From: Caldovatus aquaticus
GTDB taxonomy: Bacteria; Pseudomonadota; Alphaproteobacteria; Acetobacterales; Acetobacteraceae
Assembly: GCF_019458025.1 (NCBI RefSeq)
Contig: NZ_JAHZUY010000003.1
Coordinates: forward strand, 1 to 64,000
DNA: 64,000 bases
Reading direction: 5' to 3'
The position numbers and the translations under genes were made by a program. Below the pieces are notes generated by a model that was not told the origin of the DNA, made no database searches, and worked only from the letters and a program-made list of their open reading frames with translations. This document shows, piece by piece, positions 45,367-61,178 of the stretch (the first letter of the stretch is position 1; each line of letters starts with the position of its first letter).

Positions 45367-46560
45367 TCAGCGCGCCTCGAGCGCCGCGGCGAGATCCTCG
45401 ATGATGTCCGCCACATCCTCGAGCCCGACCGAGAGCCGCACGATGCCGTCGGTGATGCCGAGCCGCGCGCGCTCCTCGGCGCCGATGCGCATGTGGGTCG
45501 TCGTCGCCGGATGCGTCGCCAGGCTCTTGGCGTCGCCCAGGTTGTTGGAGATGTCGATCAGGCGCAGCGCGTCGAGCATGCGGAACGCCGCTTCCTTTCC
45601 GCCCTTCAGCTCGAAGGTGACGACGGTGCCGCCCGCGCGCATCTGCGCCATGGCCAGCCTCTGCTGCGGGTGGTCGGGGCGGAACGGGTAGAGCACGCGC
45701 GCGACCTCGGGCCGCCCGGCGAGGAAATTCGCCACCGCCGCCGCCGAGCGGCACATCGCGTCGAGCCGCAGCGGCAGCGTCTCCAGCCCTTTGAGGATCA
45801 CCCACGCATTGAAGGGCGAGAGCGAGGGGCCGGTGTTGCGGAGGAAGGGCTGCAGCGTGTCCTCGACCCACTTCCGGGGCCCGAGCACGGCGCCCCCCAG
45901 CACCCGTCCCTGCCCGTCGAAGTGCTTGGTCGCGGAATAGACGACGACGTCGGCGCCGAACTCCAGCGGGCGCTGCAGCAGCGGGGTGGCGAAGACGTTG
46001 TCCACCACCACCAGGGCCCCGGCGCGGTGCGCGAGGTCGGCGACCGCGCGCAGGTCCACGATCTCGAGCATCGGGTTGGAGGGGGTCTCGAGCAGCACGA
46101 GGCTCGCCGGGCGGCTCAGCGCGCGCTCCCACTGCGCGAGGTCGGCGCCGTCCACGAACTCGCCCGCGATGCCGTAGCGCGGCAGCAGGGTGGAGACGAT
46201 CCAGTGGCAGGAGCCGAACAGCGCGCGGCTCGCCACCACCCGGTCGCCGGTCCTGAGGTGCGCAAGCAGCGCGGCGTGCACCGCGGCCATCCCCGTCGCG
46301 GTGACGCGGCAGGCCTCGGCGCCCTCGAGCAGCGCCAGCCGCTCCTCGAGCATCGTCACCGTCGGGTTGCCGAAGCGCGAGTACTGGTAGTGCCGCTCGG
46401 TCCCGGCGAAGGTCGCCTCGGCCTGCGCGGCGCTGGCGTAGACGAAGCCGGAGGTGAGGTAGAGCGCCTCCGCCGTCTCGTCGAAGCCGCTGCGCATCTG
46501 CCCGCCGCGGACGAGGAGGGTGGCGGGGCGGAGCGTGCGGTCGCTGCGGGGCTTGGCCAT
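45367..46560 (-). CDS. metZ: O-succinylhomoserine sulfhydrylase
   Basis: The 397-residue Cys/Met-metabolism PLP enzyme makes homocysteine from O-succinylhomoserine and sulfide. Visible are Y-S-R-F-G-N-P-T near residue 59, the S-G-F-V-Y start typical of MetZ near 37, the PLP lysine in S-A-T-K-H near 210, and the E-T-P-S-N-P motif near 155. MetZ rather than MetB is favoured by V-Y-S-A-T-K-H-F-D-G-Q-G-R. A SAM-II riboswitch lies in its leader, so excess S-adenosylmethionine should shut it down. Confidence 0.94.
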   Translation of the reverse strand: MAKPRSDRTLRPATLLVRGGQMRSGFDETAEALYLTSGFVYASAAQAEATFAGTERHYQYSRFGNPTVTMLEERLALLEGAEACRVTATGMAAVHAALLAHLRTGDRVVASRALFGSCHWIVSTLLPRYGIAGEFVDGADLAQWERALSRPASLVLLETPSNPMLEIVDLRAVADLAHRAGALVVVDNVFATPLLQRPLEFGADVVVYSATKHFDGQGRVLGGAVLGPRKWVEDTLQPFLRNTGPSLSPFNAWVILKGLETLPLRLDAMCRSAAAVANFLAGRPEVARVLYPFRPDHPQQRLAMAQMRAGGTVVTFELKGGKEAAFRMLDALRLIDISNNLGDAKSLATHPATTTHMRIGAEERARLGITDGIVRLSVGLEDVADIIEDLAAALEAR

Positions 46561-46632
46561 GGGCGGGGGACCTTCGGAACGGAATTCCGGCCCCTCGCGG
46601 TCGGGGACGCGCCGGAGCGCGCCCCGCGGCCG

Positions 46633-46686
46633 TTTAGCGCGCTTGTTTAGGCTCGCCGCAAGCTGGCCGGACAAATCGCGAGCGTC
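46633..46686 (-). promoter_or_regulatory. SAM-II riboswitch in the metZ leader
   Basis: On the minus strand a stem GCTCGC/GCGAGC encloses GATTTG-TCCGGCC-AGCTTGC. The conserved CTAAACAAGC and GCTAAA follow. GCTTG in the loop can pair with CAAGC downstream, giving the pseudoknot of the SAM-II (metA-type) class. SAM-II elements are known in alphaproteobacteria before met genes, and S-adenosylmethionine binding lowers expression. The element ends about 72 bases before the metZ ATG. Confidence 0.9.
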
Positions 46687-46852
46687 GCTCCGCGCGGAGG
46701 CGGAACGGCGAGGCCATCTAGCCGCGGCGGGGGGCGGCCGGCAAGAGCCGCGCCGCGGGTGCGGGTGGGGAGGGGCGCGGGACGCAGGCCCGGCCAGGCG
46801 CGGGGAGGGCGGAGACGTGGCCCGTTCCGGCCGGAACCGACCCGCCCGGTGC

Positions 46853-46881
46853 TTGTCCGGGCCCACCCCCTGCGCTAACTC
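46853..46881 (+). promoter_or_regulatory. promoter of tRNA-Gly
   Basis: TTGTCC (46853-46858) and TAACTC (46876-46881) are 17 bases apart. The -10 ends 13 bases before the mature tRNA 5' end, a spacing suited to a short tRNA leader. Confidence 0.5.
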
Positions 46882-46893
46882 TATGAACTGAAG

Positions 46894-46968
46894 GCGGGCG
46901 TAGTTCAGAGGTAGAACGTCAGCTTCCCAAGCTGAATGTCGTGGGTTCGATTCCCATCGCCCGCTCCA
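46894..46968 (+). tRNA. tRNA-Gly (anticodon CCC)
   Basis: The acceptor stem GCGGGCG pairs with CGCCCGC. The D-arm is AGTTCAGAGGTAGAAC, the anticodon stem TCAGC/GCTGA holds loop TTCCCAA, and the T-arm has GTTCGATTC. CCA is encoded at 46966-46968. The anticodon reads GGG. Confidence 0.97.
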
Positions 46969-47251: not shown

Positions 47252-47298
47252 TGCCGGGTGAGGGATTCGAACCCCCGACCTTCGGTTTACAAAACCGA
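47252..47298 (-). other. attachment site: 3' part of tRNA-Thr (UGU) without its 5' half
   Basis: The minus strand shows an anticodon stem-loop TCGGT-TTTGTAA-ACCGA, a variable region, a T-arm GGGGG-TTCGAAT-CCCTC, and the 3' acceptor strand ACCCGGC plus A. The matching 5' acceptor strand GCCGGGT and D-arm are absent upstream. This is what remains when an integrating element inserts into a tRNA gene and brings its own copy of the 3' part. The restored tRNA should lie at the far end of the prophage, beyond this window. No CCA is encoded. Confidence 0.8.
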
Positions 47299-47401
47299 TT
47301 TCGGCCTCCTGCGCAATCGCAGGGACAGCCTGAAACCTAGCCTTTCCGCAGCCTTCCGCGCGCGGTCCTGCCGGCCAGGACGGCCGATCCGGCACCGAAG
47401 G

Positions 47402-47513: not shown

Positions 47514-48377
47514 ATGCGCCAGGAGACCCTTGAGCGCCTGACCACGCACGTCCTCGAGCTGCTCGCGACGGACGGCATCCAGGCCTTCGACCGCTTCGCC
47601 CGCATGGGCAGCCGGCCGCTCCGCTTCTCCACCGGGACCGCCTACCGGGGCGGCAACGCCATCGCCCTCTGGGCCACCGCGCAGCTGAAGGGCTACGGCT
47701 CCCCCTTCTGGCTGACCTACAAGCAGGCGCAGGAGGCGGGGGCGCATGTGCGCCGCGGCGAGAAGGGCACGCTGATCCTCTACGCCGACCGCTGGAAGCC
47801 GCAGGACGCCGACCCCGACGACCCGGCCCGGGTGTTCGTGCGCGCCTACACCGTGTTCAACGCCCACCAGGTCGAGGGCCTGGCCCCGAGCTACTACACC
47901 CCCCTCCGTCGGCCGGAGGGCTTCGACCCGATCCCCGAGGCCGAGGCCTTCGTGCGGGCCACCGGCGCCACGGTGAAGGAGGGCGCCGGCCGCGCCTGCT
48001 ACATCCCCGCGCTGGACCGGATCGACATGCCCGACCGGCGGGCCTTCGCCGACGCCGAGGGCTTCTACGCCACGCTACTGCACGAGCTCGTCCACTGGAC
48101 CGGCGCCGAGGCGCGGCTGAACCGGCCGATGAAGAACCGCTTCGGCGATCCGGACTACGCGCGCGAGGAGCTGGTAGCCGAGCTCGGCGCCGCGCTGCTC
48201 TGCTGCGATCTGAAGCTCAGCAAGGCGCCGCGCGAGGACCACGCCCACTACCTCGCGGGCTGGATGCGCGCGCTGAAGAAGGAGCCGATGGAGCTGTGGT
48301 CGGCGGCGCGGGCGGCCGAGACCGCCTGCGACCACCTCTGGGGCTATCAGCCCCGCGAGGAGAAGATGGCGGCCTAG
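47514..48377 (+). CDS. ArdC-like antirestriction protein
   Basis: The 287-residue protein has the two ArdC domains. The N-terminal single-strand-DNA-binding domain (residues 1-125) shows Y-R-G-G-N-A-I-A-L-W near 44 and Q-A-Q-E-A-G-A-H-V-R-R-G-E-K-G near 72. The C-terminal zincin-like domain (150-280) has H-E-L-V-H-W-T-G near 189 and the downstream glutamate in E-E-L-V-A-E-L-G near 220. ArdC proteins protect incoming DNA from type I restriction and are known from conjugative plasmids and phages. It is the only plus-strand gene in the prophage segment, and its stop overlaps that of the small membrane protein gene by three bases. Confidence 0.88.
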   Translation: MRQETLERLTTHVLELLATDGIQAFDRFARMGSRPLRFSTGTAYRGGNAIALWATAQLKGYGSPFWLTYKQAQEAGAHVRRGEKGTLILYADRWKPQDADPDDPARVFVRAYTVFNAHQVEGLAPSYYTPLRRPEGFDPIPEAEAFVRATGATVKEGAGRACYIPALDRIDMPDRRAFADAEGFYATLLHELVHWTGAEARLNRPMKNRFGDPDYAREELVAELGAALLCCDLKLSKAPREDHAHYLAGWMRALKKEPMELWSAARAAETACDHLWGYQPREEKMAA

Positions 48378-48393
48378 CGGCCGCCACCCTTCT
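48361..48393. terminator. hairpin over the convergent stop codons (bidirectional terminator candidate)
   Basis: TGGCGGCC (48367-48374) and GGCCGCCA (48379-48386) form an 8-base stem with loop TAGC. AGAAG (48361-48365) and CTTCT (48389-48393) extend it past a small internal loop. The ArdC stop codon lies in the loop. There is no T-run, so efficiency is uncertain. Confidence 0.45.
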
Positions 48394-48601
48394 CGCGCAG
48401 GAAGATCCCGGCGGCGCCGAGCAGCACGAGCAGAGCGCCCGTCCAGCCGCCGGTCTGCGCCGCGGCGATCGTCTGCTGCACCACGTCGCCGGCCGCCACC
48501 ACCTGCGGCTCGCCGAGGATCTGCCCGACCCCCGCCACGATCAGGCCCGCGCCGACCGCCGTGCTCGGCTCGCGCAGCCGCCCCTGGAACCAGTCCATCA
48601 T
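48374..48601 (-). CDS. small phage membrane protein (holin candidate)
   Basis: The 75-residue protein has a charged start (W-F-Q-G-R-L-R-E), a first hydrophobic segment (about 13-30) and a second (about 50-67), ending in R-E-K-G-G-G-R. Two helices with a positively charged tail is a common holin plan. Two ATGs lie in tandem; 48601 overlaps the upstream stop as ATGA, and 48598 has the better spacing to GGAGGT. It is the last gene of the late transcript. I do not recognise the family. Confidence 0.65.
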   Translation of the reverse strand: MMDWFQGRLREPSTAVGAGLIVAGVGQILGEPQVVAAGDVVQQTIAAAQTGGWTGALLVLLGAAGIFLREKGGGR

Positions 48602-49095
48602 GCAACCTCCTCTGCCGGCGCCAGCGCTCGCTCCGCCGCCGCCCATGCCTCGCCCCACCGCTCGGGGCGCGGACGTCCCGGCCGCCAGAGCCGCAGGTAG
48701 CAGTCCCAGGCCGGGCCCTCCGCGCGCGGCAGCGGCATCGGATCCGTCCACAGCAGCAGCCGCGCGAAGGCGCAGGCCAGCGCGTCGTTCTGTTCCAGCG
48801 CCGCCCACACCGTCTCCGACTCCGGCCGCACCAGCAGCGCCCCGCACACGAAGCGCGCCCGCTCGCGCGTGGCCGGGTGACGCAGCACGCCGGCGACGCC
48901 CCCTCCCCGCTCGAACTGCCAGAGCCCCATCGCGTGCGCGACCGGGATCTGGCGCCGGTGCCGCAGGTCCGTCTCCTGCTTGGCGACGGCGAGCAGCATC
49001 ACCTCCGCCTCCGCCGAGTGCGGGATCCGGCAGGCCTGATCCATCCAGGCGAGCACCGGCCGCACCGTCAGCCGGAGCAGCAGTTCCGGCGTCAT
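48598..49095 (-). CDS. phage lysozyme/transglycosylase-like protein
   Basis: The 165-residue protein has a glutamate in A-K-Q-E-T-D-L-R-H-R near residue 40 followed by G-L-W-Q-F-E-R-G-G-G-V near 57-67. The catalytic-Glu-then-G-x-x-Q-F layout recalls lysozyme-like muramidases, where Glu is followed by G-L-x-Q. Similar W-Q-F-E proteins occur in phage lysis or tail regions. There is no signal peptide. It lies between two small membrane or structural genes with ATGA overlaps, so a lysis role is plausible but unproven. Confidence 0.55.
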   Translation of the reverse strand: MTPELLLRLTVRPVLAWMDQACRIPHSAEAEVMLLAVAKQETDLRHRRQIPVAHAMGLWQFERGGGVAGVLRHPATRERARFVCGALLVRPESETVWAALEQNDALACAFARLLLWTDPMPLPRAEGPAWDCYLRLWRPGRPRPERWGEAWAAAERALAPAEEVA

Positions 49096-49307
49096 CCCCC
49101 CCGCGCCCTCCGCTTCCGCAGCCGCTCGACGTGCGGCACCAGGCGCTTCGCGAGCAGCGCCTTGGCGCGCGCGATGTCGAGCCCGCACACCCGGACCTCG
49201 GGGAAGAGCTCGGCCGCCAGCGTCCAGTGGCGGCCCGAGCGGCTGGCCCTCACCGTCAGCCGCTCCCCCAGCACCTCGATCGTGAGCGGCACCGTCTCCG
49301 CCGTCAC
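49092..49307 (-). CDS. small phage protein, function unknown
   Basis: The 71-residue protein begins at GTG 49307, which overlaps the upstream stop as GTGA, and ends by overlapping the next ATG. The sequence has a strand-rich N-terminal half (T-I-E-V-L-G-E-R-L-T-V) and a basic helical C-terminus (A-K-A-L-L-A-K-R-L-V-P-H-V-E-R-L-R-K). No family is recognised. Its position among structural and lysis genes suggests a late function. Confidence 0.6.
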   Translation of the reverse strand: MTAETVPLTIEVLGERLTVRASRSGRHWTLAAELFPEVRVCGLDIARAKALLAKRLVPHVERLRKRRARGG

Positions 49308-49927
49308 GGCACCACCCGGAAGCCGAGCACCGGCAGGCCCTGCGAAGCGCCGGTGAGCTCGGTGAAGCTCGCCCCGGTCAGATCCGGCATGTCGCCGGCG
49401 AAGGCGTTGGCCACATAGACCCCGCTCATCTGGTTGGTGCCGCCATTCTGGATCGCGTTCGCCGCCGTGTCGGCGCCGCACCACCACGCCACCAGCATCG
49501 AGGTCCCGGGCACCGAGGTGCAGGTCGGCAGCGTCCCGGTGAACTTGCTCCCGGCGAAGTAGAGCCCGGGCTCGAGCCGCACCGGCGACACCGCCGCCTC
49601 CACCACCCCGGCCACCGCCGTGGACTGCGCCGCGTTCACCGCGGCGAGCGGCGCCCCGGTCGGCCGCCCCGCCCCATCGGCGCGCCAGAGGCCCATCTTC
49701 ACCGAGGAGCCGGCGCCGGCGGTGATGACGCGCAGGAAGAGCCGGTCGATCGTCACCGGCGCCATGATCTCGGCCGGGTGCAGCAGCAGCCGGTCGGCCG
49801 CGTTCACCGCCCCCGTGGAGGTCACCGGCACCGCGCCGAAGGGGTAGTAGCGGCCCGGCTTGTAGCCGACCCCGGCCCACTGCCGCCACGCCGGACGCTG
49901 CAGCCCGATCACCGGCTGATCCTCCAC
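49304..49927 (-). CDS. phage structural protein, function unknown
   Basis: The 207-residue protein is rich in Gly, Ala, Thr and beta-strand-forming stretches and has no membrane segment. Motifs include G-R-Y-Y-P near 26, V-K-M-G-L-W-R near 75 and P-G-L-Y-F-A-G near 120. The look is that of a jelly-roll fibre or decoration protein. It lies directly downstream of the tailspike cluster and overlaps its upstream neighbour by 19 bases. It may be an accessory receptor-binding or chaperone-like tail component. Confidence 0.65.
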   Translation of the reverse strand: MEDQPVIGLQRPAWRQWAGVGYKPGRYYPFGAVPVTSTGAVNAADRLLLHPAEIMAPVTIDRLFLRVITAGAGSSVKMGLWRADGAGRPTGAPLAAVNAAQSTAVAGVVEAAVSPVRLEPGLYFAGSKFTGTLPTCTSVPGTSMLVAWWCGADTAANAIQNGGTNQMSGVYVANAFAGDMPDLTGASFTELTGASQGLPVLGFRVVP

Positions 49928-50235
49928 GCCACCGTGCCGCTCGTGAACGAGGCGCAGCGCAGGCGGAACAGCACCCCGGGCTCCGGCTGCTCGCCGGTCC
50001 AGGCCCCCGGCGCCGCGACGCTGAACTCGGCGCCGTCGCGGGTCGTCGCCGGCACCGCCGTCACCCCGCCGTCGAAGCTGTATTCGCCGACCACCGTGGC
50101 GACGAAGGTGCCGGAAAGCACCACGTTGAAGGCGCTGCCGCCGACCTCCATCCAGGCGCCGGCCCCGGTGCCCGTGAAGCTGCCGGTCGCCACGCGCCGC
50201 GCGAGATCCGGCTGGCCGCTCGCGATCTTGCCCAT
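49909..50235 (-). CDS. small phage structural protein, function unknown
   Basis: The 108-residue protein is beta-rich with G-S-F-T-G-T-G near residue 18, F-V-A-T-V-V-G-E-Y-S-F-D-G-G near 44, and an F-R-L-R-C strand near 90. No signal peptide or membrane helix is seen. It is coupled to the 207-residue gene downstream by a 19-base overlap. I suspect a small tail or fibre component; no family is recognised. Confidence 0.6.
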   Translation of the reverse strand: MGKIASGQPDLARRVATGSFTGTGAGAWMEVGGSAFNVVLSGTFVATVVGEYSFDGGVTAVPATTRDGAEFSVAAPGAWTGEQPEPGVLFRLRCASFTSGTVAWRISR

Positions 50236-50239
50236 CGCC

Positions 50240-50413
50240 TCAATCCCCGCTTCCGGGCAGGTGGCGCGGCAGCGCCCCGCCCAGGCGTTCGGTCAGCCGC
50301 TCGAGCAGCACGCGCACCTCCGCCAGCCGCGTGTCGAGCCGCCACACCAGGAAGGCCAGGATGCCGAGCACTCCGCCCTCCTGGATCAGCTTGAGCAGCC
50401 CCGTCTCTTCCAT
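50240..50413 (-). CDS. 57-residue phage membrane protein (holin-like)
   Basis: A short gene encodes M-E-E-T-G-L-L-K-L-I, one hydrophobic segment (G-V-L-G-I-L-A-F-L-V-W, residues 14-24), then a charged amphipathic helix (R-L-A-E-V-R-V-L-L-E-R-L) and a Pro/Gly tail. One membrane helix followed by an amphipathic helix is a common small-holin plan. Its stop lies four bases before the next ATG, and it is 67 bases downstream of the tailspike. Confidence 0.65.
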   Translation of the reverse strand: MEETGLLKLIQEGGVLGILAFLVWRLDTRLAEVRVLLERLTERLGGALPRHLPGSGD

Positions 50414-50480
50414 GCCGTTCCTCCGCCCCCGGCCCAGGGTCCCTCCCCTACAGGGGGTGGCCGGGGGCGGCCACGCACAG

Positions 50481-52808
50481 TCAGAGCCGCGGCTTCACCG
50501 CCCGGACGAACAGCGTGCCCGACCCGACCGTGATGGAGCCGCCGGAGACGTTGTGCGCCGTCACCCGCACCTGGTTGCTGCTCGCGGTCCCGCCGACCAC
50601 GGCGTGGAACACCACGCCCCCGTTCTGGAAGCCGGCGTCCATCGCGAAGCCGGCCTGCACGAAGTCGCCCTGGCGCACCCCGGAGAGGGTCACGTCCTGC
50701 GTCGCCGTCGCCCCGGCCGCCAGCGGCGGCACGGTCCAGGCGAGCGAGGTCCCGAGCTCGCGCTTGCCCCACGCCCGCCCCGCCCCGAAGAGCAGCCGCG
50801 GCGCGTGCTCGGCCGGCGCGAACAGGCGCAGCGCCTTGAGGACCGCCGTGGCCGAGCCGCCGCGCACGCCGATCACCGCCCACTTCGCGTCGGCGTGCAG
50901 CGTCACCCGCTGCAGCCGGAGCAGCCCGTAGCCGCCGGTCAGGCTGTCGAGGTTCGAGTTGCCCTCCCACCAGTAGGAGGGCGCGCCCTGGAAGGTAATG
51001 CCCATGCCGGAGAGCAGCACGGTCTTGGTGCCGTCCAGCACGTTCTCGGCGGCGTCGAACTGCATCACCACGGGGCGCAGCTCGCTCCCCTCGGCGGCGA
51101 TGAAGAATTCCTTGCAGAGAGAGCAGTCCACCACGAAGGCCAGCGCCCGGCTGGTCGGCAGCGTCACGTCGTCGGCGTTGAGCGTGAGCTGGTCGAGCGC
51201 CGGGAAGCAGAAGCCGCTCAGCGTCGAGGGCGGCCCGGCCGGGTTGCCCGAGAGCACCGCCAGCCGCTCGAACCCGATCTCGGTGGCCGACCAGCGGAAC
51301 GCCGCGGCGCGCAGGTTCTCCACCGCCGCCACCAGCCGCGGCGTCGCCACCGCACCGACCGCCTGGTGCAGCGGCACCACCGCCCCGCCGGCGCGCGTCG
51401 CCCCGGCCGCATAGTCGATCGCGCAGCCGAGGAAGCCATAGGTGCCGACATAGGCGACCTCGTAGAAGGCGTCGCTGTAGCCCCCCGTGTGCCGCGCAAC
51501 GAAGGGGCTGCACGCCTCCATCCGCACCGCGCGCGCCGTCAGCCCACGCCCGTCCACTTCGAGCAGGAAGGGGATCGCGTCCACCGTCCCCGGCGTGCCC
51601 TGGCGCTGCAGCTCGAAGTCTGGGCCGAAGAAGGCATGCGCGTTGTGCCGGTCGTAGGCGCCGGGGTTGGCCGAGAGCCGCACTCCGAAGCGCGACAGCG
51701 TCGGGTGGGTCGCCGACTGGTTCGAGAAGTGCCCGCCGATGTAGCGGTTGGCGTTGTTCCAGCTCGTTGCCTGCTCGGTGCGGATGTCGAGCCCGTAGCG
51801 GCAGTCCACGATCCGGCCAAGGACGAAGGTGCTGTCCTCCACCCCGAAGGTGCCGGCGCCGAGGGTGCGCACGCCGATGGTGAAGCCGTTGGCCTCGACG
51901 ATCTCCACCAAGCCGGCGTCGAGGTTGCAGACCAGGACGCCGATCTCGGCCTCGTTCAGCCAGTCCGTGACGGCGGTGCGGACGACGCGGATGCCCCGTC
52001 CGACGAAGGAGCGGTTGCGCTGCGTCGTGCTGCCGATGGTCAGCGCCGGGGCGCCGCTCACCGAGGAGACGATGGAGCCGCGCATGATGAGCTCCGGCAC
52101 CCCGACCGGGATGGTGACGGTGCCGGTGCAGCGGAAGGTGCCGATCAGCAGCAGCGGGCGGCCGGCCGACGCCGCATGGGCGGCGGCCGCGTTGAGGGCG
52201 AGGGTGTCGTCGCCCTGGCCGTCGCCGCGCGCCCCCCAGAACAGCGGGTTGACCGCATCGGCCATGATCGCGCCGAGGCTGCGCGCGGTGGTGGCGCCGC
52301 TCGCCGTCACCGTGTCGGCCGACTTGTCGAGCTGCGACAGCGCGATCGGGTTGCCGGCGGCATCGAAGCCGAGCACCTTGCTCGCCCGCTCCGACCAGGA
52401 CGGCAGCGGGTCGGCCGTGGGGTCCCCATCCGGCAGGCGGAGGGTCTGATCGAGCCGACGCACATGGTCCTGCAGCGCCAGCCAGAAGCGGCTGATCTCG
52501 CGGTTCAGCGGCTTCACCGGGAAGGCGCCGGAGGTCGGGAACAGCACGTCCTGCTCGAGCGCCGTGTCGCGCTGGATCGTCACCCGCGCGTTGCTCACCG
52601 CCGCGGTGAGCCGCACCGTCGCCCCCTCGTAGAAGCCGTCCGTCAGCGTGCCGCCGACCACCTCGAACGTCGCCGCCGTCCCGTCCACGAACACCTGCAG
52701 GTCGGTGGTGTCGTCGAAGGGGAACGGCACCGGGAAGTCTGTCTGCGCGGTGGCGCCGACCGCATACTGGACGATGCTCGCGACGGTGGTGACGCGGAAG
52801 TTGCTCAT
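50481..52808 (-). CDS. tailspike/tail fibre with beta-helix domain
   Basis: The 775-residue protein starts with a short adaptor-like domain (residues 1-150, with F-P-V-P-F-P-F-D-D near 25) of the kind that anchors podovirus fibres. It continues with F-W-G-A-R-G-D-G-Q-G-D-D-T near 190, the opening of pectate-lyase-like beta-helices. The long Gly/Asn-rich repeat region (200-620) fits a trimeric spike. The C-terminal 110 residues look like a separate beta-sandwich. Such spikes bind and often cut surface polysaccharide. The ATG overlaps the upstream stop by four bases. Confidence 0.8.
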   Translation of the reverse strand: MSNFRVTTVASIVQYAVGATAQTDFPVPFPFDDTTDLQVFVDGTAATFEVVGGTLTDGFYEGATVRLTAAVSNARVTIQRDTALEQDVLFPTSGAFPVKPLNREISRFWLALQDHVRRLDQTLRLPDGDPTADPLPSWSERASKVLGFDAAGNPIALSQLDKSADTVTASGATTARSLGAIMADAVNPLFWGARGDGQGDDTLALNAAAAHAASAGRPLLLIGTFRCTGTVTIPVGVPELIMRGSIVSSVSGAPALTIGSTTQRNRSFVGRGIRVVRTAVTDWLNEAEIGVLVCNLDAGLVEIVEANGFTIGVRTLGAGTFGVEDSTFVLGRIVDCRYGLDIRTEQATSWNNANRYIGGHFSNQSATHPTLSRFGVRLSANPGAYDRHNAHAFFGPDFELQRQGTPGTVDAIPFLLEVDGRGLTARAVRMEACSPFVARHTGGYSDAFYEVAYVGTYGFLGCAIDYAAGATRAGGAVVPLHQAVGAVATPRLVAAVENLRAAAFRWSATEIGFERLAVLSGNPAGPPSTLSGFCFPALDQLTLNADDVTLPTSRALAFVVDCSLCKEFFIAAEGSELRPVVMQFDAAENVLDGTKTVLLSGMGITFQGAPSYWWEGNSNLDSLTGGYGLLRLQRVTLHADAKWAVIGVRGGSATAVLKALRLFAPAEHAPRLLFGAGRAWGKRELGTSLAWTVPPLAAGATATQDVTLSGVRQGDFVQAGFAMDAGFQNGGVVFHAVVGGTASSNQVRVTAHNVSGGSITVGSGTLFVRAVKPRL

Positions 52809-55800
52809 CGGCGGGGGCCTCCCAGGAAGCCGGACAGCGCCGGCGCCGGCTCACGACCCGCCGGCTCGGGCTGCATCGCGGTCCCGGCCTCGCGCGCCAG
52901 GGCGCGGAAAAGCCAGTCCACGTAGATCAGGTTGTTGAACCAGAGCGTGCGGCGGAGCGCCCCGGCGACCTGGTTGCCGGTCGCCTCCGGATCGGTCAGC
53001 GCCCACACCGCCATGAGCCAGGGCGCGAGCGCCGGGCCGCCGATGGCGGCGGCCTGCTGCGCCCAGGACGGCTCGCGGGCGAAGGCCGGCGGGTCGAGGC
53101 CGAGCAGCGGCCGCAGCCCGGCGGCGTTGCCGCTCAGCATCTCGATCGCGGTGTTGAGGTCGCCGAGGATGCCGCTCGCGCCCGACCGCTCGATGGCGCT
53201 GAACAGCCGCTCCCAGGAGGCGAGCGGGTGCCTGTCGTGCTCCCCGCCCGCGGGGCCGGCGACCAGCCAGGCGATGGCGATGGAGGAGAGCACGCCCGCC
53301 AGCACGCGCGCGTCGCGCTGCTGCAGCCCGGCCATCAGCATCCGCTGCGTCGCCGCCACGGCGAAGCCCTTGTAGAGGAACAGCATCTGCCCGAGCGGGC
53401 GGCTGAGGAAGCCCGGCCGGTCGGCGGCGGTCGGGCGCATCACCGCGGCGTCCACCGCGGTCTTGAGGGCGGCGCGGAACTGCTCGCGCAGCTCCGCGTC
53501 GGCCCAGGCGTCAGTGTTGGCCAGCGCCAGCCGCCCGTGCCGCTCGGCGCCGGCCGCCCGCCATTCGGCGGCGATCCGGCGCGCCGTCCCCTCGCCGATG
53601 CCGTAGGCGGCAAGCCGCGCGATCTCGTCGGCCGACGCCTCGCCGTCCGCCACCTTCGCCGCGAGCTCGACCATCTCGCCCTGGATCAGCGCCCCGGCGA
53701 AGCGCTGCGCCCAGTTGGTCCAGGGCACCATGAGGTTGACGAACATCATGGTCTCGGCGCCGGACCGCGCCCACCGCTCGATCAGCGTGTGGTCGGCGCC
53801 GATGCTCGCCATGTCGTAGAAGGCCCGCGCCCGGCCGAGCGTCACGAGCTCGAGCGCGGCACCCGCCTTCGCCGCCTCGTCGCCGCCGCGGCGGAACGCC
53901 TCGGCCTGCCGTCCGAGGCTGTCCATCAGCCCGCCGAAGGCCTGGCGGAAGCCGACCGCCATCACGATCCGGCCGAGGTCGGCGATCTGCGCCTTCAGCC
54001 CACCGCCGAGCTGCGTCAGCACGGCGTTGTTGATGAGGAAGCGGATCGCCCGCACCGAGAGGGCGTCCGGATCCTCGGGGACGTGCAGCGTGCCGAGCAC
54101 CTTGTCGCGCAGGTCGCGCGTCGCCTGGGTGACGGCGCGCGCCTCCTCGACCGTGCCGCGCCCGGCCGCCACCTCGCCCAGCATGGCGATCCGGTTGGCG
54201 GCGAGGCGGCCGAGCATGGAGGGGTCGCCGAACTTGCGGCTCATGGCGATCGCCGCCCCCATGCGGCGCGCATACTCGGCGCCGCCGGCGCGCTGGCTGA
54301 GGTCGAGGAAGTCGGCGATCAGCGCGGTCGGCAGGTCGATCGTGCGCTTGCGCGCGTGGCCGGGCCGGAAGCGGTCGCCCCACTCCCCCTGCGGCGCGTC
54401 GCCGCCGCCCACGATCTCGCGCACGAGGCGGTCAAGGCCGTCCTCGCCCTCCTCCCCACGCACCCCGGCGGCGCGCAGCGCGGCCTCCACCGCCCGCGTC
54501 ACCGCCGGATCGGAGGAGCGCTCGACGCGCCGCCCGAGCGCCGAGGCGATCTCGATCCGCAGCCGCGAGGGCTCGACACGGGCCACCGCCTCGCGCACCG
54601 GCGCCGCCGCCTCGGCCGCGCGCTGGCCGGCCAGCTCGGGGTCCATGCCGCCGTCCACCAGGTGCCGGCGCAGCACGCGCTCGACGGTCGGGCCGATGCC
54701 CTCGCGCAGCAGGTGGGAGATCGCGACCTCGGCACGAATGCCGGAACTCGCCCAGGTGTGCCCGCTCTCCGCCTCCCACCAATCGGCGATGCGCCGGGCG
54801 AGCTCGTCGCGGCGGCGCCGCACCTCGCTGCGGATCCAGTTGTGCGGGACGTAGGGCTCGCCCTTGGGCCGCCGCTCGGCCAGCGCCTTCGCCCGCTCGC
54901 CCAGGTCCGCGAGCTGCGCCGCGAGGTCCTCGCGCAGGGCGAGCCACTCGGCGAGCACCGGGTCGGCGGCGGCCTTCTCGCGCGCCGCCGCGAGCCGGGC
55001 GTCGGCCGCGGCGCGCAGCGTCTCGACTTCCTCGCGCGCCTGCTTCACCGCCGCGGCCGCCTCGGCCATCTGGATCCGCCGCGCCGTGGTGCCCTCGCGG
55101 TTCAGCGCCTCGCGGCTCTGGTCGGCGAAGGCGCGGGCGGCGCGCAGCGCGTCCTCGGCCGCGGCGAGCCGCGCCTGCGCCGCCTCGGCCGCCTGGCGCT
55201 GCTCGGGCGTGATGCCGGCGCGGGCGTCGATCTCCCGCTCCACCTGCTCGAGCTGGCGCGTCGCCACGTCGCGCTCGCGACGCAGCGCCGCCTCGGCCGC
55301 CTCGCGGTGGCGCGGCGAGAGCAGCACGCCGGCCTCGGCGCCCTCGCGCTCGAAGGGCTCGTAGAAGTGCTCGCGCCAGAACCGCGCCGCCTCCACCACC
55401 TGCGGGATGCGGTGCTCGCCGGTCGCCACCGCGAGCCCCACCGCCCGGTCGAACTCGGCGAAGGACAGCACCCCCTCGGGGCGCCCCGTCAGGCCCTCGC
55501 GCAGCTCCTCGAAGCGGGCGCGCCCCGGCGTCGCCCTGGCCGGGTCCCAGCCGCGGTAGGCGTAGTAGAGCTCGGCCTGCCGGCGCTCGGCGGCGGCGTA
55601 GCGCCAGGCCGCCTGCGCCGCCCGCGCCTCGACGCTCGCCGTGTCGGTGGCGTGGCCCACGGCGTTGCCGCGCAGGCGAAGGCCCGGGATCTGCACGATC
55701 TGGTCGGCCAGCCGCGCCAGCATGTTGCCGACCTCGCCGACGAAGCGGTTGTTCTTCAGCCGGTAGTAGGGCAGCTCGGCCATGCGCGCCCGCTCGGCGC

Positions 55801-57499
55801 CGGTGCCGGTGGCGGCGAGGCGGTCGCCGCCCTCGGGCGCCGGCGGCCCCTCGATCCGTCCCATGCCCGGAGGCGGTGGCTGGTCGTCGTTGGCGCCGGC
55901 GAGCAGCAGGCGCTCGGCGAGCGGCGCGTCGTCGCCGGTCGCCTGCCGCGCCAGGTCCTCATGCGCGCGGGCGGTCGCCGCGCCTTCCGCCTCGTCGGCG
56001 CGCCGGATCGCCGCCTCCGCCCGCTCGGCCAGCGCCTCGGCCTCGTCGAGCAGGATCCGGCGCGCCGGGTCGGCCTCGTCCATCGCCGCGATGCGCGCCG
56101 CGAGGCGGAGGAACGCATCGTGCAGCTCGTCAGCCTCATGCCGCAGGCGCTCGGCGGCCTGGAACAGCTCGGGCAGCGGCGTGCGCCGCAGTTCGGCCGC
56201 GCGCGCCATGTCCTCCGGGTCCCGGCTGCGGGCGAGCGCGCGCCACGCCGCGGCCTGCGGGCCGCCGAGCAGGCGCAGGCGCTGCTCGCTGGCCACTCCC
56301 CAGGCATCGGCCGGATCGAGGTCGTTGGCGGCGAGCGTGCCGCGCGCGAGGTCGTCCACCTGGCGCGGCACGAGCCGGCCCGCCGCGTCGAGCCGCGCCC
56401 AGCCGGCGCCGGGGAGATTGACCTCAAGGCCCGCCGCCGGCGGCGCGGTCCGCTCGGGCGGCGGCGCGGCGCGGCTCTCGCTGACGCGCACCACCTCGTA
56501 GTCGCCGACGCGCGCGCCGGGCGCGGCCGGGTAGCGCCGCCCCTCGGCGTCCACCAGAAGATCGCCCTCGCGACGCAGGACGCGGACGGCGACCTCCCGA
56601 TCCGTCTCCACGTGGCGCAGCGTCAGCCAGGTCTCGGCCTCGGCGGGCGGCGCCGACGCGCGGGCCGCGCCCTCCGGGGTGTCGGCCGCGGCGGCGGCGC
56701 CGGATCGTCCGGCCGGTGAAATTTCACCGGCGGCAGCCGAAACCCGCGCCGCATCGGCCCCGGCGGGGGATGCGCCGGCCGGCGAAATTTCACCCTCGGC
56801 CGCGCGCGGCCGTGCGCCGGGCGTGCGCAGCCCGTCCGCCAGGTCGTGCGCGAGGGCGTGGCGCCACGCCGCGGCGTCCAGGGACCGTGCGCTCACCAGC
56901 CCGGCGGCGCCGCCGAGCGCCGCGCCGAGCAGCGCCGACAGCGCCACCTCCGTCCCGAGGTCGCCCTGCAGCCCGGTCGGCAGACCGGGGCGCGCCAGCA
57001 CGTTCTCGGCCGCCGCCATGCCGCCGGTGAGCGCCGCCGTGCGCCCCGCCGCCTGCGCCGCCCGCCCGAGCCGCGTCGTCGCCGAGAGCCCGCCGATGCC
57101 GAGCGGCAGCGTCAGCAGGTTCTCAGGGGTGAGCATCCCGGCGAGGAACTGGCCGAGGAAGCCCGCCCCTTCCAGCTCGCGCGCCCGCTCGCGCAGCGCG
57201 TCCACCCGCCGCTTGAGGAAGGCCGTCTCCTCCGGGCTGCGGCTGTCGCGGAACAGGTGCAGGCTGTCCTCGTAGCCGCGCAGCTCGGCCGGATCGGCAT
57301 AGGGGTTGTAGCCCGCGACCGGCGGCGGCGCCCAGGCGCCGAAGGCCTCGAGCCGCTGCCGGTATTCCTCGGCGGTGCGCGCGAGGAAGCTCTGCTGCAT
57401 CCAGCCGGCGACGAAGTTGCGCAGGCCGCTGTTCGTCTCCGCGGCCGGCAGGCGGAAGGGGCGCGAGCCCGGCGCCCACTCGGGGAGGGTCTCGCTCAT
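52805..57499 (-). CDS. 1564-residue ejection/internal virion protein (T7 gp16-like position)
   Basis: The protein starts with a helical domain and a hydrophobic stretch (about 110-205, with L-T-P-E-N-L-L-T-L-P-L-G near 125). An Ala/Pro/Glu-rich linker with two G-E-I-S-P-A-G copies follows (220-270). A long coiled-coil-rich centre spans about 740-920. The helical C-terminus has membrane-prone segments (L-S-S-I-A-I-A-W-L-V-A near 1415) and ends with F-N-N-L-I-Y-V-D-W-L-F. Giant helical proteins in this place are T7 gp16-type ejection proteins that form the DNA channel. Unlike T7 gp16, I see no transglycosylase domain in it. Confidence 0.75.
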   Translation of the reverse strand: MSETLPEWAPGSRPFRLPAAETNSGLRNFVAGWMQQSFLARTAEEYRQRLEAFGAWAPPPVAGYNPYADPAELRGYEDSLHLFRDSRSPEETAFLKRRVDALRERARELEGAGFLGQFLAGMLTPENLLTLPLGIGGLSATTRLGRAAQAAGRTAALTGGMAAAENVLARPGLPTGLQGDLGTEVALSALLGAALGGAAGLVSARSLDAAAWRHALAHDLADGLRTPGARPRAAEGEISPAGASPAGADAARVSAAAGEISPAGRSGAAAAADTPEGAARASAPPAEAETWLTLRHVETDREVAVRVLRREGDLLVDAEGRRYPAAPGARVGDYEVVRVSESRAAPPPERTAPPAAGLEVNLPGAGWARLDAAGRLVPRQVDDLARGTLAANDLDPADAWGVASEQRLRLLGGPQAAAWRALARSRDPEDMARAAELRRTPLPELFQAAERLRHEADELHDAFLRLAARIAAMDEADPARRILLDEAEALAERAEAAIRRADEAEGAATARAHEDLARQATGDDAPLAERLLLAGANDDQPPPPGMGRIEGPPAPEGGDRLAATGTGAERARMAELPYYRLKNNRFVGEVGNMLARLADQIVQIPGLRLRGNAVGHATDTASVEARAAQAAWRYAAAERRQAELYYAYRGWDPARATPGRARFEELREGLTGRPEGVLSFAEFDRAVGLAVATGEHRIPQVVEAARFWREHFYEPFEREGAEAGVLLSPRHREAAEAALRRERDVATRQLEQVEREIDARAGITPEQRQAAEAAQARLAAAEDALRAARAFADQSREALNREGTTARRIQMAEAAAAVKQAREEVETLRAAADARLAAAREKAAADPVLAEWLALREDLAAQLADLGERAKALAERRPKGEPYVPHNWIRSEVRRRRDELARRIADWWEAESGHTWASSGIRAEVAISHLLREGIGPTVERVLRRHLVDGGMDPELAGQRAAEAAAPVREAVARVEPSRLRIEIASALGRRVERSSDPAVTRAVEAALRAAGVRGEEGEDGLDRLVREIVGGGDAPQGEWGDRFRPGHARKRTIDLPTALIADFLDLSQRAGGAEYARRMGAAIAMSRKFGDPSMLGRLAANRIAMLGEVAAGRGTVEEARAVTQATRDLRDKVLGTLHVPEDPDALSVRAIRFLINNAVLTQLGGGLKAQIADLGRIVMAVGFRQAFGGLMDSLGRQAEAFRRGGDEAAKAGAALELVTLGRARAFYDMASIGADHTLIERWARSGAETMMFVNLMVPWTNWAQRFAGALIQGEMVELAAKVADGEASADEIARLAAYGIGEGTARRIAAEWRAAGAERHGRLALANTDAWADAELREQFRAALKTAVDAAVMRPTAADRPGFLSRPLGQMLFLYKGFAVAATQRMLMAGLQQRDARVLAGVLSSIAIAWLVAGPAGGEHDRHPLASWERLFSAIERSGASGILGDLNTAIEMLSGNAAGLRPLLGLDPPAFAREPSWAQQAAAIGGPALAPWLMAVWALTDPEATGNQVAGALRRTLWFNNLIYVDWLFRALAREAGTAMQPEPAGREPAPALSGFLGGPRR
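56712..56794. repeat. duplicated palindromic segment inside the giant ejection-protein gene
   Basis: A 20-base perfect palindrome (56712-56731, core GGTGAAATTTCACC) and a 14-base copy with one mismatched pair (56781-56794) lie with centres 66 bases apart. Each includes GAAATTTCACC, an A+T island in G+C-rich DNA. They encode the two G-E-I-S-P-A-G peptide repeats, 22 codons apart. Confidence 0.7.
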
Positions 57500-60400
57500 G
57501 GCCGCAGGCTGTCGAGGTGCGGGGCGGACGGGTTGGGCACCGAGCCGGGCCAGGGCTCGTTCGGCGCCGCGGCGTCGCGCCGCTCGCGCGCCACCCCCTC
57601 CTCACCGGCGCGGCGCTGCAGCCAGCGCAGCCGGTGGCGCCACGCCTCGGCCTCGAGCGGGATCAGCACCGGGGCGCCGGTGCGCACGCCGTCCGGCCCC
57701 ATCATGCCGAGATAGTTCCGCACGCCGGGCGCGACCGGGCCCCAGAGCTCGTAGAGCCGCGCCACCACCACCCGCCTGCCGCCGCGGCCGTCCTCCACCT
57801 CGACCCGCTCGAAGCGGTCGGTCGGGCGGAGGAAGGCGCTGCCGCCGAGCACCCAGTTGGCCCGCTCCTCATCGGAGAGCCCCTGTCGGCGCAGCACGTC
57901 CTGCACCAGCTCCTCCTGCCAGCGCGCGCCGACCTCGCCGCCCCGCCCGTAGGGCGCGACGTGCTGCTCGGGCGGGTGCCGCACCCATTGCGGCGCCCCG
58001 AAGAGCCGCGCCCTGAGGCCGGACGGCATCCCCTGCGCCCCGCCCGGCGGCAGGCCGTATCGCGACAGGCCCCACTCGCCGCTCGCCGTGATCTCGCGGA
58101 GCGCCTGCCGCGCCGCCCGCTGGCGGTCGGGGACGTTCGCCATGAGCATCAGGATCTTGCCGTTGAGCTCGGCTTCCATCGCGGGCGGCAGGGTCGTCGG
58201 CCCGCCGGCCTCGGACAGCGCGCCCTCGACCAGTCGGCGCAGCTCCCTGCGCTGCTCGTCCGGCGTCGCCCCGAGCCGGGCCATCATCTCCTCGGCGAGC
58301 GCCGGGTCGCCGCGCGCGATGCGCCGGGAGGCCTCGATGAGCGGCTGCACCCGCTGCTCGAAGCCCTCCTCGGGGATCGACCGCAGCTGCTCGGCCACCC
58401 CCTCGAAGGCCCTGCGGCTCTTCTCGTCCAGCTGCGCGTGATAGACGCGCCGCGCCTGCGGGTCGGCCTCGAGCGCCTGGTGGATGGCCGCCGCCGCGGC
58501 GTAGGTGCGCGGGTCGCGGCTTTCGAGCGCGCCGAGCATGAAGCCCACCACCTGCTCGGGCAGCACGCCGGCGCGCGCCGCCTGCACGATCCGCGCCTGC
58601 GCCCCCGGGTCGGTGAAGGGCGCCTGCGCCTCGCCGCGGATCCAATCCAGCGCGATCGCCTGATACTCGCGGTTGTTCTCGACCTGCGGCCCCTGCTGGT
58701 CGCCCGGCCGCATCGCCTCGGCGAAGCGTTGCCACCGCTCGGCCTGCTGCTGCTGCAGGCGCAGCGCCTGCGCGCGGTCGCGGGTAAAGGTCTCGAGGAT
58801 GTCCACCTGCGCCGCGAGGGGGAGGCCCTGGATGCGCCGCAGCACCTCCGCCACCTCGCCCGCCGGCTGCGCGTCGGGCGTGACGCCGAGCGCGGCCAGC
58901 GCCCGCTCGCGGCGGAACTGCATCACCGCCTCGGCCGCGGCCCGCCCCTCGGCGGCGCGGTCGGCCTGCTCGCTCCGGCGGGCGACGTCCGCGCCCCAAT
59001 CGGCGCCGATGACCCGACCGATCTCGTGCAGCTCGCGCTCGATCTGGCTGCGCCGCGCGACCAGCGCCGGCGGCAGTGTGCCGTCCGGCCGGCGCTGGCG
59101 CTCCATCTCCGCGAGCTCCATGGCGCGGTCGGCCATGACCCGCGAGGCGGCGAGCCGCGTGCGCTGCTCGCGCCAGGTGATCTCCTGGCGCTGCTCGCGC
59201 ACCAACGCGTCGCCGAAGGCGGCGAGCTGCTGGCGCTCCTGCGGCGTCAGCCCGTTCCACTCCTCGCGCCAGCCGGGCGCGCCGGGGCCGGCGCGCAGCG
59301 CCTCGACGATGCGCCCGGCCTCCACCGTGTCGGCCGCGCCGCCCGGCCCGCTGCCCGCCCCGGGGAGCAGGTTGGCGAGGTAGCGCCGCGTCTCCTCCGG
59401 CAGCGGCCGGCCCGTCCGCAGGTGCTCGTCCACCCGGCCGGGCCCGGCGTTGTAGGCGGCGAGCGCGAGGCGGAGGTCGCCGCCGTAGTGATCGAGCAGC
59501 GCGCGCAGGTAGCGCGCGCCCCAGGGGATCGCCTTCGCCGGGTCGCTGCGGTCCTCCGGCCGCAGCGGCGGCAGGCCGAAGCCCGGGTCGCGCGCCGTCG
59601 CCGCCATGATCTGCGCCGCCCCGACCGCCCCGGCCCGGCTCACCGCGTTCGGGTCGCCGCCGCTCTCGAGCCCGAACACCTCGCGCAGCAGCCGCTCGGG
59701 CAGGCCGGTCTCGGCCGACGCCGCGGCGACGATCGGGCGCCAGCCCTCCGGCAGCCGGGCGCCGAACCGCTCCGGCCCGTCGCCGAGCAGCGCCGCGCCG
59801 GCGCCGCCGCGCAGCTCGCGCTGCAGCCGCGCCTGCAGCGGCGCCACCACCAGCAGCCGGCGCTCGATCTCGGCCGCCTCGCCACGGTCCCAGACCCCGC
59901 CCGTGTCCTGCGCGATCTTGGCCCGGAGCGACGCCAGCACCGGCGCCGGGTCGCGCCCCTGCAGGATGAGGTCGAAGGCCTCGCCGCCGAGCCGCCCCAA
60001 CGCCTGCTCGGAGAGGCGGCGCGCCTCCTGCCGGTCGCGCGCCGCGCGCTGGCCGAGCAGGTTGCCGTAGTGCTGGCCGATCAGCCGGCCGATCCCCTCG
60101 CCCACCGGCAGGCGCAGCTCGGGCGGCAGCGCCGAGAGCGTGCCCTGCCGCCACCGCTCCGCCGCCTGCCGGAAGGCCTCGGGGTCGTCCGCGTGCTGCT
60201 GGCGGAGCCGCTGGATCTCGCCCTGGCTGTCGAGCAGGAATTCGGAGGCGTAGCGGCTGGTCAGGACCTCGCGCCGGCGCCGCTCGGCGATGCGTTCGAA
60301 GGGGCGGCGCGAGAGGTCGGGGACCACGATGCGCCCCTCGGCGTCGCGCTCGATCGGCTCGGAGGCGCCGGCCGCCTCGCCGCTCGCGATCGCCTCCTGG

Positions 60401-60564
60401 GTGCGCTCGCGCTCGAGCAGCGAGGCGAGCGGGTCCAGCACCCCGGCGACGTCGAAGGCCTGGGCCGTGGCGCGGCGCGCCACCTCGCCGGTGCGGCCGA
60501 GATCCACCACCCCCGCCCCTTGCGGGAGGACGGTGCGCTCCTCGCGCGGCAGGCTGCCGCTCAT
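57496..60564 (-). CDS. 1022-residue internal virion protein with lytic transglycosylase domain
   Basis: After a helical N-terminus, residues 275-400 form a goose-lysozyme-like transglycosylase. The catalytic Glu lies in V-F-G-L-E-S-G-G near 299, followed by G-A-V-G-A-A-Q-I-M near 312, and A-Y-N-A-G-P-G-R-V near 370. This SLT domain cuts peptidoglycan so that DNA can enter. The remaining 600 residues are mostly alpha-helical, rich in Glu/Arg/Gln. The position after the gp14-like gene corresponds to T7 gp15. The stop overlaps the next ATG by four bases; its own ATG overlaps the upstream TGA by one base. Confidence 0.85.
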   Translation of the reverse strand: MSGSLPREERTVLPQGAGVVDLGRTGEVARRATAQAFDVAGVLDPLASLLERERTQEAIASGEAAGASEPIERDAEGRIVVPDLSRRPFERIAERRRREVLTSRYASEFLLDSQGEIQRLRQQHADDPEAFRQAAERWRQGTLSALPPELRLPVGEGIGRLIGQHYGNLLGQRAARDRQEARRLSEQALGRLGGEAFDLILQGRDPAPVLASLRAKIAQDTGGVWDRGEAAEIERRLLVVAPLQARLQRELRGGAGAALLGDGPERFGARLPEGWRPIVAAASAETGLPERLLREVFGLESGGDPNAVSRAGAVGAAQIMAATARDPGFGLPPLRPEDRSDPAKAIPWGARYLRALLDHYGGDLRLALAAYNAGPGRVDEHLRTGRPLPEETRRYLANLLPGAGSGPGGAADTVEAGRIVEALRAGPGAPGWREEWNGLTPQERQQLAAFGDALVREQRQEITWREQRTRLAASRVMADRAMELAEMERQRRPDGTLPPALVARRSQIERELHEIGRVIGADWGADVARRSEQADRAAEGRAAAEAVMQFRRERALAALGVTPDAQPAGEVAEVLRRIQGLPLAAQVDILETFTRDRAQALRLQQQQAERWQRFAEAMRPGDQQGPQVENNREYQAIALDWIRGEAQAPFTDPGAQARIVQAARAGVLPEQVVGFMLGALESRDPRTYAAAAAIHQALEADPQARRVYHAQLDEKSRRAFEGVAEQLRSIPEEGFEQRVQPLIEASRRIARGDPALAEEMMARLGATPDEQRRELRRLVEGALSEAGGPTTLPPAMEAELNGKILMLMANVPDRQRAARQALREITASGEWGLSRYGLPPGGAQGMPSGLRARLFGAPQWVRHPPEQHVAPYGRGGEVGARWQEELVQDVLRRQGLSDEERANWVLGGSAFLRPTDRFERVEVEDGRGGRRVVVARLYELWGPVAPGVRNYLGMMGPDGVRTGAPVLIPLEAEAWRHRLRWLQRRAGEEGVARERRDAAAPNEPWPGSVPNPSAPHLDSLRP

Positions 60565-61178
60565 CAGACCGGCCCCCGGGCGCGGCCGGTCAGCGGCTCG
60601 ATCATCGCCACCTGTTCGTCGGTCAGGCCGCGGTAGAGGCTCTGGCGGTTGTCGGGGGCGCCGCCGCCGCCCTCAGGGGCCGAAACCGGCCAGGTCTGAT
60701 AGACCGAGAGGCCGGCGCCGAGCAGCGTGGCGGCCGGGCGGATCCAGGCGGTGCGCCCCATCGCCGCGAAGGAGTCGTGCTCGAGCACGGCGGCGCGGTC
60801 GGAGAGGAGGAGCTGGCGTTGCCGCGCCGCGCCGAGCAGGCGGATGGCGGAGATGTCGCCCATCACCTGCCGCTCGTTCTCGCCTTCCAGGGTGGCGATG
60901 GTGCCCGAGCCGTAGGGGTCGAGGCCGAAGGCGGCGGCGGTGGCGCGCAGGCTGCTCTCGGTCAGGCCGGCGCGGCGCTGCCGCTCCACCTCCTGCTGCC
61001 GCGCCTGCACCGCCACGGTGTCGCGCTCGATGGCGAGCTGCTCGCGCCTGAGCGCCGCCATCTGGCGGCCGATCGAGGCCTGCGCCCGCGCGTTGGAATA
61101 CTGGGCGCCGGCCTGCAGCGCGGCGACGCCGAGGGAAGCCGCGGCCATCCCCGCGGACAGGGCGAAGCTCCAGGTCAT
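60564..61178 (-). CDS. internal virion protein, T7 gp14-like
   Basis: The 204-residue protein has a hydrophobic N-terminal segment (A-A-S-L-G-V-A-A-L-Q-A-G near residue 15) followed by a long Gln/Arg-rich helix (35-95) and a second hydrophobic stretch near 150. Size and layout match T7 gp14 (about 196 residues), the small ejection protein placed in the outer membrane. Its gene lies between nozzle and large ejection-protein genes as in T7. The start overlaps the nozzle stop by four bases. Confidence 0.72.
   Translation of the reverse strand: MTWSFALSAGMAAASLGVAALQAGAQYSNARAQASIGRQMAALRREQLAIERDTVAVQARQQEVERQRRAGLTESSLRATAAAFGLDPYGSGTIATLEGENERQVMGDISAIRLLGAARQRQLLLSDRAAVLEHDSFAAMGRTAWIRPAATLLGAGLSVYQTWPVSAPEGGGGAPDNRQSLYRGLTDEQVAMIEPLTGRARGPV

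Follow-up and report, generated by a model that had tools for sequence, protein, structure and literature searches.

In front of metZ in Caldovatus aquaticus, a member of the Acetobacteraceae, we found a SAM-II riboswitch followed by 67 bases that may form a translational expression platform working by competition between strands, a reading to which we assign a probability of about one half. The window, which is the whole stretch of 64,000 nucleotides analyzed here, contains in this gap a strand, called D, that is the reverse complement of the aptamer loop strand L1 and would be a second, competing partner for it. Judged from its class and its gene, both read in the sequence, and from what is known of ligand and direction in the family, the riboswitch should turn metZ off at high S-adenosylmethionine (SAM). 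Without SAM, L1 would pair with the distal D across an intervening hairpin (H), leaving the ribosome-binding site open. With SAM, the pseudoknot would tie L1 to the nearby CGGCC and release D, and the freed D side would pair over the Shine-Dalgarno (SD) side in another hairpin (S) and so shut the site. The counterpart of D in other alphaproteobacteria appears often to be the 3' arm of an intrinsic terminator, and the same competition would act there on transcription.

The aptamer and the gap before metZ

Searched with the covariance model RF00521 (SAM_alpha, SAM-II), the minus strand gave a match of 57 bits at 46614-46692, covering all 79 positions of the model, with an E value of 3e-12 in a 501-base search and of 3.8e-10 in the whole 64-kb window. 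In a genome scan with the same model, this was the sole match at E 0.001 or better. The class proposed by the initial annotation thus passed the covariance check, the cut-off being 36 bits, and the element before metZ is, by its sequence, a SAM-II riboswitch. Riboswitches of this class bind SAM, form P2 upon binding, and act in the OFF direction. The features of the leader, all on the minus strand, are as follows.

46739..46744, minus strand: possible -35 element TTGCCG, 17 bases upstream of CTAGAT (by eye only)
46716..46721, minus strand: possible -10 element CTAGAT (by eye only)
46678..46683, minus strand: P1 5' strand GCTCGC (RF00521 alignment)
46665..46671, minus strand: L1, aptamer loop strand TCCGGCC (RF00521 alignment)
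46651..46656, minus strand: P1 3' strand GCGAGC (RF00521 alignment)
46633..46650, minus strand: conserved strands CTAAACAAGC and GCTAAA (RF00521 alignment)
46628..46632, minus strand: P2 3' strand CGGCC (sequence and RF00521 alignment)
46602..46626, minus strand: spacer hairpin H, between P2 and D (-22.1 kcal/mol, z -3.77)
46586..46592, minus strand: strand D, GGCCGGA, reverse complement of L1 (conservation in leaders, enrichment over shuffles)
46563..46598, minus strand: hairpin S, joining the D side to the SD side (-19.4 kcal/mol, z -2.31)
46571..46575, minus strand: SD-like GAAGG, 10 bases before the ATG (sequence)
45367..46560, minus strand: metZ, O-succinylhomoserine sulfhydrylase, 397 amino acids (TIGR01325)

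The P1 stem GCTCGC/GCGAGC that had been described was present at 46683-46678 and 46656-46651, and so were the two conserved strands, CTAAACAAGC at 46650-46641 and GCTAAA at 46638-46633. L1 contains the 5' strand of the pseudoknot P2 and is also complementary to D. We took the pseudoknot from the sequence; the structure line of RF00521 holds the P1 pairs only. Its two parts are predicted to pair GCTTG (46663-46659) with CAAGC (46645-46641) and GGCC (46668-46665) with GGCC (46631-46628), in agreement with the earlier statement that the loop is able to form a pseudoknot. The interval first given for the element, 46633-46686, leaves out the P2 3' strand at 46628-46632. If CTAGAT, picked by eye, is the -10 element, transcription is expected to start near 46709; an automatic promoter scan around the leader found none.

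The gene behind the aptamer is metZ, as had been annotated: its product scored 583 bits with TIGR01325 (cut-off, 510.05), and the closest named relative among the matches listed is Caldovatus sediminis, whose MetZ is 95% identical over query residues 1-389. The leader of a genome of the same genus (L121, from G047) is nearly identical to that of the window. The metZ ATG lies at 46560, 67 bases behind the P2 3' strand, or 53 when counted from where the Rfam match ends. The gap had been put at about 72 bases, a figure that drops to 67 once the last pseudoknot strand is counted, and had been called longer than expected. It is of ordinary length, as the distance from P2 to the start codon has a median of 75 and quartiles of 66-83 in 123 family leaders, or of 76 and 69-87 when measured to the last possible ATG. 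The start codons were set by script as the most upstream in-frame ones; a later ATG is possible in 19 of the 123 family leaders, and the choice looks wrong by eye in L004 and L108, which adds noise to the distances and to the tests on SD sides.

RF00521 matched 126 of 150 sampled Acetobacteraceae genomes at E 0.001 or better, 109 of them over the cut-off, and 141 of 289 genomes in a class sample of Alphaproteobacteria (124 over the cut-off). One same-genus genome, 78% complete, had no match at E 0.001 or better. Among the genomes of a 2014 survey, nine Rhodospirillales included, SAM_alpha was limited to Rhizobiales and Rhodobacterales (PMC4239095). We parsed 204 of the 207 loci L001-L207 (L031, L043, and L046 were left unparsed, and no start codon was found in L117 and L159); the named set, of 80 loci, and the family set overlap, for example in L121 and L128. 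In L031, from one family genome, the P1 and loop of the aptamer resemble by eye those found outside the family, and this is possibly a transferred copy.

Beside the metZ region lies a phage-like stretch (47514-62807), with an ArdC-type anti-restriction protein encoded at 47514-48377 and, at 50481-62807, large proteins with matches to tail proteins and to internal virion proteins; one of these large proteins has a transglycosylase-like part. Adjoining these genes, a tRNA-like 3' portion that has no complete D arm, at 47252-47305 (minus strand) scored 29 bits, exactly the Rfam cut-off, and ARAGORN called no tRNA at these positions. This piece may be an attachment-site remnant.

A strand in the gap complementary to the aptamer loop

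The case for D comes from comparison among leaders. We aligned 119 family leaders, without four long ones (L090, L096, L098, and L100) and without the 79 named leaders. GG[CT]C stood at the D position in 105 of the 119, and no other 6-column window in the 70-column spacer was as well conserved as D (GGCCGG), which had a mean conservation of 0.87 versus a single-column median of 0.42; the SD columns reached 0.71 and 0.64, and the stretch between the aptamer and D was variable. In the D core, the first two columns were G at 0.94 each, the third was C at 0.68, mostly replaced by T where it differed, and the fourth was C at 0.97. The motif [GT]GCCGGAC was present in 47 of the 79 named leaders, against a mean of 0.68 and at most 3 in 50 shuffles, and in 24 of the 123 family leaders (mean of 0.8 and at most 4 in 50 shuffles), where GG[CT]CGG occurred in 83 (shuffles: mean of 17, at most 24).

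In the window, the predicted L1-D duplex has 7 contiguous pairs and -15.7 kcal/mol. When leaders were grouped by loop sequence into A, B, and C (28, 51, and 20 leaders), the median number of contiguous pairs was 8, 8, and 6 between loop and D, and 5, 4, and 4 between loop and P2 3' strand. Among the Roseomonas-like genomes with loop GTCCGGTC, 11 of 13 carry GGCTGGAC at D, which by eye keeps eight pairs with that loop, G-U included. A single-leader test of L1 against the spacer gave p values of 0.05 or less in 51 of the 79 named leaders. Only 33 of the 123 family leaders reached p 0.05 in this test, and for the window alone L1-D was not beyond dinucleotide shuffles (p 0.149). We did not count the finding that L1-D was stronger than the pairing of L1 with the P2 3' strand (P2') in 98 of 99 leaders, as it set 12 bases of D against 7 of P2'.

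We then swapped pairing partners among leaders. Of the 119 aligned leaders, 99 entered the swap test, chosen for GG[CT]C or TGCC at D, and 95 the simulation described below. Because the 99 were chosen by their D sequence, the strength of L1-D in them is in part a circular result, and the comparison with swaps alone is informative. Since the leaders are related, the permutation counts are no probabilities. L1-D was stronger with its own partner (-15.29) than with swapped ones (-14.44), and 0 of 1,000 permutations reached the own value. With swaps restricted to within groups (-15.18), 55 of 1,000 did, in a test of low power because the loop hardly varies inside a group. For S, the own value was -13.49, compared with -12.17 for swaps and -12.80 for within-group swaps; for H, it was -14.94, compared with -11.43 and -11.95, and in all four comparisons 0 of 1,000 permutations reached the own value. 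The established helix L1-P2' failed as a control (own, -8.93; swapped, -9.32; 1,000 of 1,000 permutations reached the own value), so the swap test is blunt and should not be counted as specific.

When the region behind P2 was folded alone, H and S were predicted in most of the 24 leaders shown. The arms of S differ between groups, being GGACGCC/GGTGTCC in A, GGCCC/GGGCC in B, and CCAGAAT/ATTTTGG in some of C. The whole 141-base leader of the window folded no better than shuffles (z -0.52). The D side and the SD side were paired in 87 of 99 folds; the share was 84% when SD sides were swapped and 72% when they were shuffled. We also examined S in an alignment of 54 leaders of one group, in which slid registers had 55% or less of the cells paired versus 81% in their own register; no two-sided change was seen, and 364 of 500 shuffles paired as well. 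These 54 came from 66 loci chosen by [GT]GCCGG[AG], after removal by hand of 12 with odd or unclear SD sides, and their invariant D columns are circular because the loci were chosen by the D motif.

The same data could be explained without a competition for L1. D would then be the fixed 5' side of an SD hairpin that is always formed, and the SAM-stabilized P2, together with the stable H and S, would hinder the ribosome or stabilize the mRNA. In line with this, S has the lower predicted energy in the window (-19.4 versus -15.7 kcal/mol for L1-D), so that the open state in our proposal would need cotranscriptional folding, stacking on P1, or a higher temperature. Moreover, blocking D in simulated folds of 95 leaders did not free the SD, for which the mean unpaired value was 0.33 with D blocked, 0.36 with D free, and 0.38 with other windows blocked, and GGCC, a palindrome, easily finds complements in G+C-rich RNA. 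However, conservation is overall higher in the D core columns than at the SD, the core is kept across clades whose S arms differ in sequence and place, and part of it is unpaired in some folds. We regard a passive D as rather unlikely. The extra expression platform that the initial annotation suggested for the gap thus finds partial support: the comparison with relatives speaks for it, short of proof, and the single-leader test on L1-D in the window and the D-block simulation speak against its simplest form.

Terminators and leaders outside the family

A different output would be transcription attenuation, in which SAM causes termination, intrinsic or Rho-dependent, between the aptamer and the gene. 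Putative terminators are carried by many SAM-II riboswitches according to two reports (PMC1273637; PMC9373788), and one is predicted for S. meliloti metZ (PMC9373788). In G. oxydans, the 5' untranslated region (UTR) of this gene was covered 20-fold more than the open reading frame (PMC5756330), so control is probably exerted between aptamer and gene. The authors interpret this difference as termination of transcription and, for the G. oxydans leader, cite a prediction of a terminator/antiterminator (PMC5756330). Against this stands the leader of the window, where no hairpin with a T run behind it was found in 46450-46900 and where the bases following H and S form no T run; we rejected an intrinsic terminator as the platform of the window. 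Rho-dependent termination, for its part, could be a consequence of blocked translation. Attenuation as the output in the window thus appears improbable to us.

Terminators are frequent outside the family. We parsed 64 of 70 loci (L208-L277), which form the upper part of the class-sample list and hence a nonrandom sample, and whose downstream genes are not necessarily metZ. A terminator-like hairpin before a T run was present in 50 of the 64 leaders. In 43 of these 50, the loop (often CCGACC) pairs better with the 3' arm of the terminator (often GGTCGGGG) than with the 5' arm. In permutations of loop and 3' arm, the own value was -11.38 versus -10.82, and 6 of 1,000 permutations reached it. By eye, several of these leaders show an A-C mismatch (for example, L209, L228, L232, and L235).

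These leaders also bear on the idea that D pairs with the P2 3' strand, nested around H, and breaks the aptamer from the other side. We consider this very improbable: although the window allows five contiguous pairs between P2' and D (-13.5 versus -15.7 kcal/mol for L1-D), this pairing is weaker than L1-D in 95 of 99 leaders, and outside the family, many leaders have, by eye, GGTCGG both in P2' and in the 3' arm of the terminator, so that these two are not complementary and the pairing of loop and arm is favored.

The sequences thus suggest that many SAM-II leaders contain a strand competing for the loop, and we infer that its output is a terminator elsewhere and the ribosome site in the Acetobacteraceae. 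A broader formulation, which we offer tentatively, is that SAM-II leaders of metZ in the Acetobacteraceae use a second copy of their own pseudoknot strand, D, as an output device that competes for the loop and, on its release by SAM, closes the ribosome site. As the competing strand is a terminator arm in other alphaproteobacteria, one logic would have been exchanged between transcription and translation with the aptamer kept fixed.

An inserted arm and comparison with known systems

The comparison of leaders also revealed an arm of two hairpins inserted in the aptamer between the P1 3' strand and AAAACAAG. The window lacks it. Of the 80 metZ leaders from near named relatives (L128-L207), 55 have it, as read in the sequence for 54 of them and deduced from length only for L159, and so do 16 loci of the family sample (L032-L042, L044, L045, and L047-L049). 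We aligned 55 of 58 loci. The longer hairpin showed two-sided changes in 8 of 8 pairs among the 55 aligned examples, and the arm structure as a whole had 142 two-sided cells versus 58.9 in shuffles, a value reached by 0 of 500. The number of pairs with a two-sided change, 10, was reached by 154 of 500 shuffles. The 16 arm-bearing genomes of the family sample scored 28.2 to 35.4 bits with RF00521, all below the cut-off of 36, and in 13 of them the match was limited to positions 10-43 or 10-42. G132 likewise has a long span and is an ambiguous case. A model built from the arm-bearing set was a poor detector outside the family: it matched 11 of the 289 class genomes, including that of the window, all with short spans. 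In another alphaproteobacterial family (f116), L284 and L285 have a shorter insertion at the same aptamer site, at about bases 110-190 and with a single hairpin by eye, indicating that this site tolerates insertions more widely. Two single aptamers carry a hairpin elsewhere, L050 inside loop L1 and L051 just before GCTAAA.

Neither the class of this riboswitch nor its location is new. SAM-II is usually described with an output within the aptamer or directly at it, or else in a terminator. Its occurrence upstream of metZ is on record for S. meliloti (PMC9373788) and for Gluconobacter oxydans, there before the same gene, that of O-succinylhomoserine sulfhydrylase (PMC5756330). With the SAM-II elements of alphaproteobacterial met genes described by Corbino in 2005 (PMC1273637), the window shares P1, the pseudoknot strands, CTAAACAAGC, GCTAAA, and a methionine gene downstream; it differs in that no intrinsic terminator was found in it and that the D strand and the SD hairpin come after the aptamer instead. 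In S. meliloti, SAM-II likewise precedes metZ (Scheuer 2022, PMC9373788), and a Rho-independent terminator is predicted there, whereas none was found in the window. For S. meliloti metA, the same paper places the SD at the aptamer and the start of translation 74 nucleotides downstream of this riboswitch SD (PMC9373788); in the window, GAAGG begins 52 bases behind P2. In G. oxydans 621H, which has the same class before the same gene, the 5' UTR is 155 bases long by the positions tabulated in PMC5756330, compared with about 149 in the window, counted from the promoter picked by eye. The SAM-II element of metX that works by direct occlusion, covered in a review (PMC10907184), has the same aptamer class and OFF direction, but its ribosome site lies inside P2. 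In the window, this site is outside the aptamer, and no SD was seen within the P2 3' strand (GAAGG is at 46571-46575, and P2 ends at 46628).

In the portions available to us of the open-licence PMC literature, including PMC1273637, PMC4239095, PMC5756330, PMC10907184, PMC2258182, and PMC9373788, we saw no description of D and its SD hairpin or of the arm insertion. The low scores of the arm-bearing aptamers also mean that a group of SAM-II elements is underrated by the standard Rfam model. If D works as proposed, strand competition allows a large bacterial family to use this aptamer from a distance, and the sequences provide a test set for the change of expression platforms between transcription and translation.
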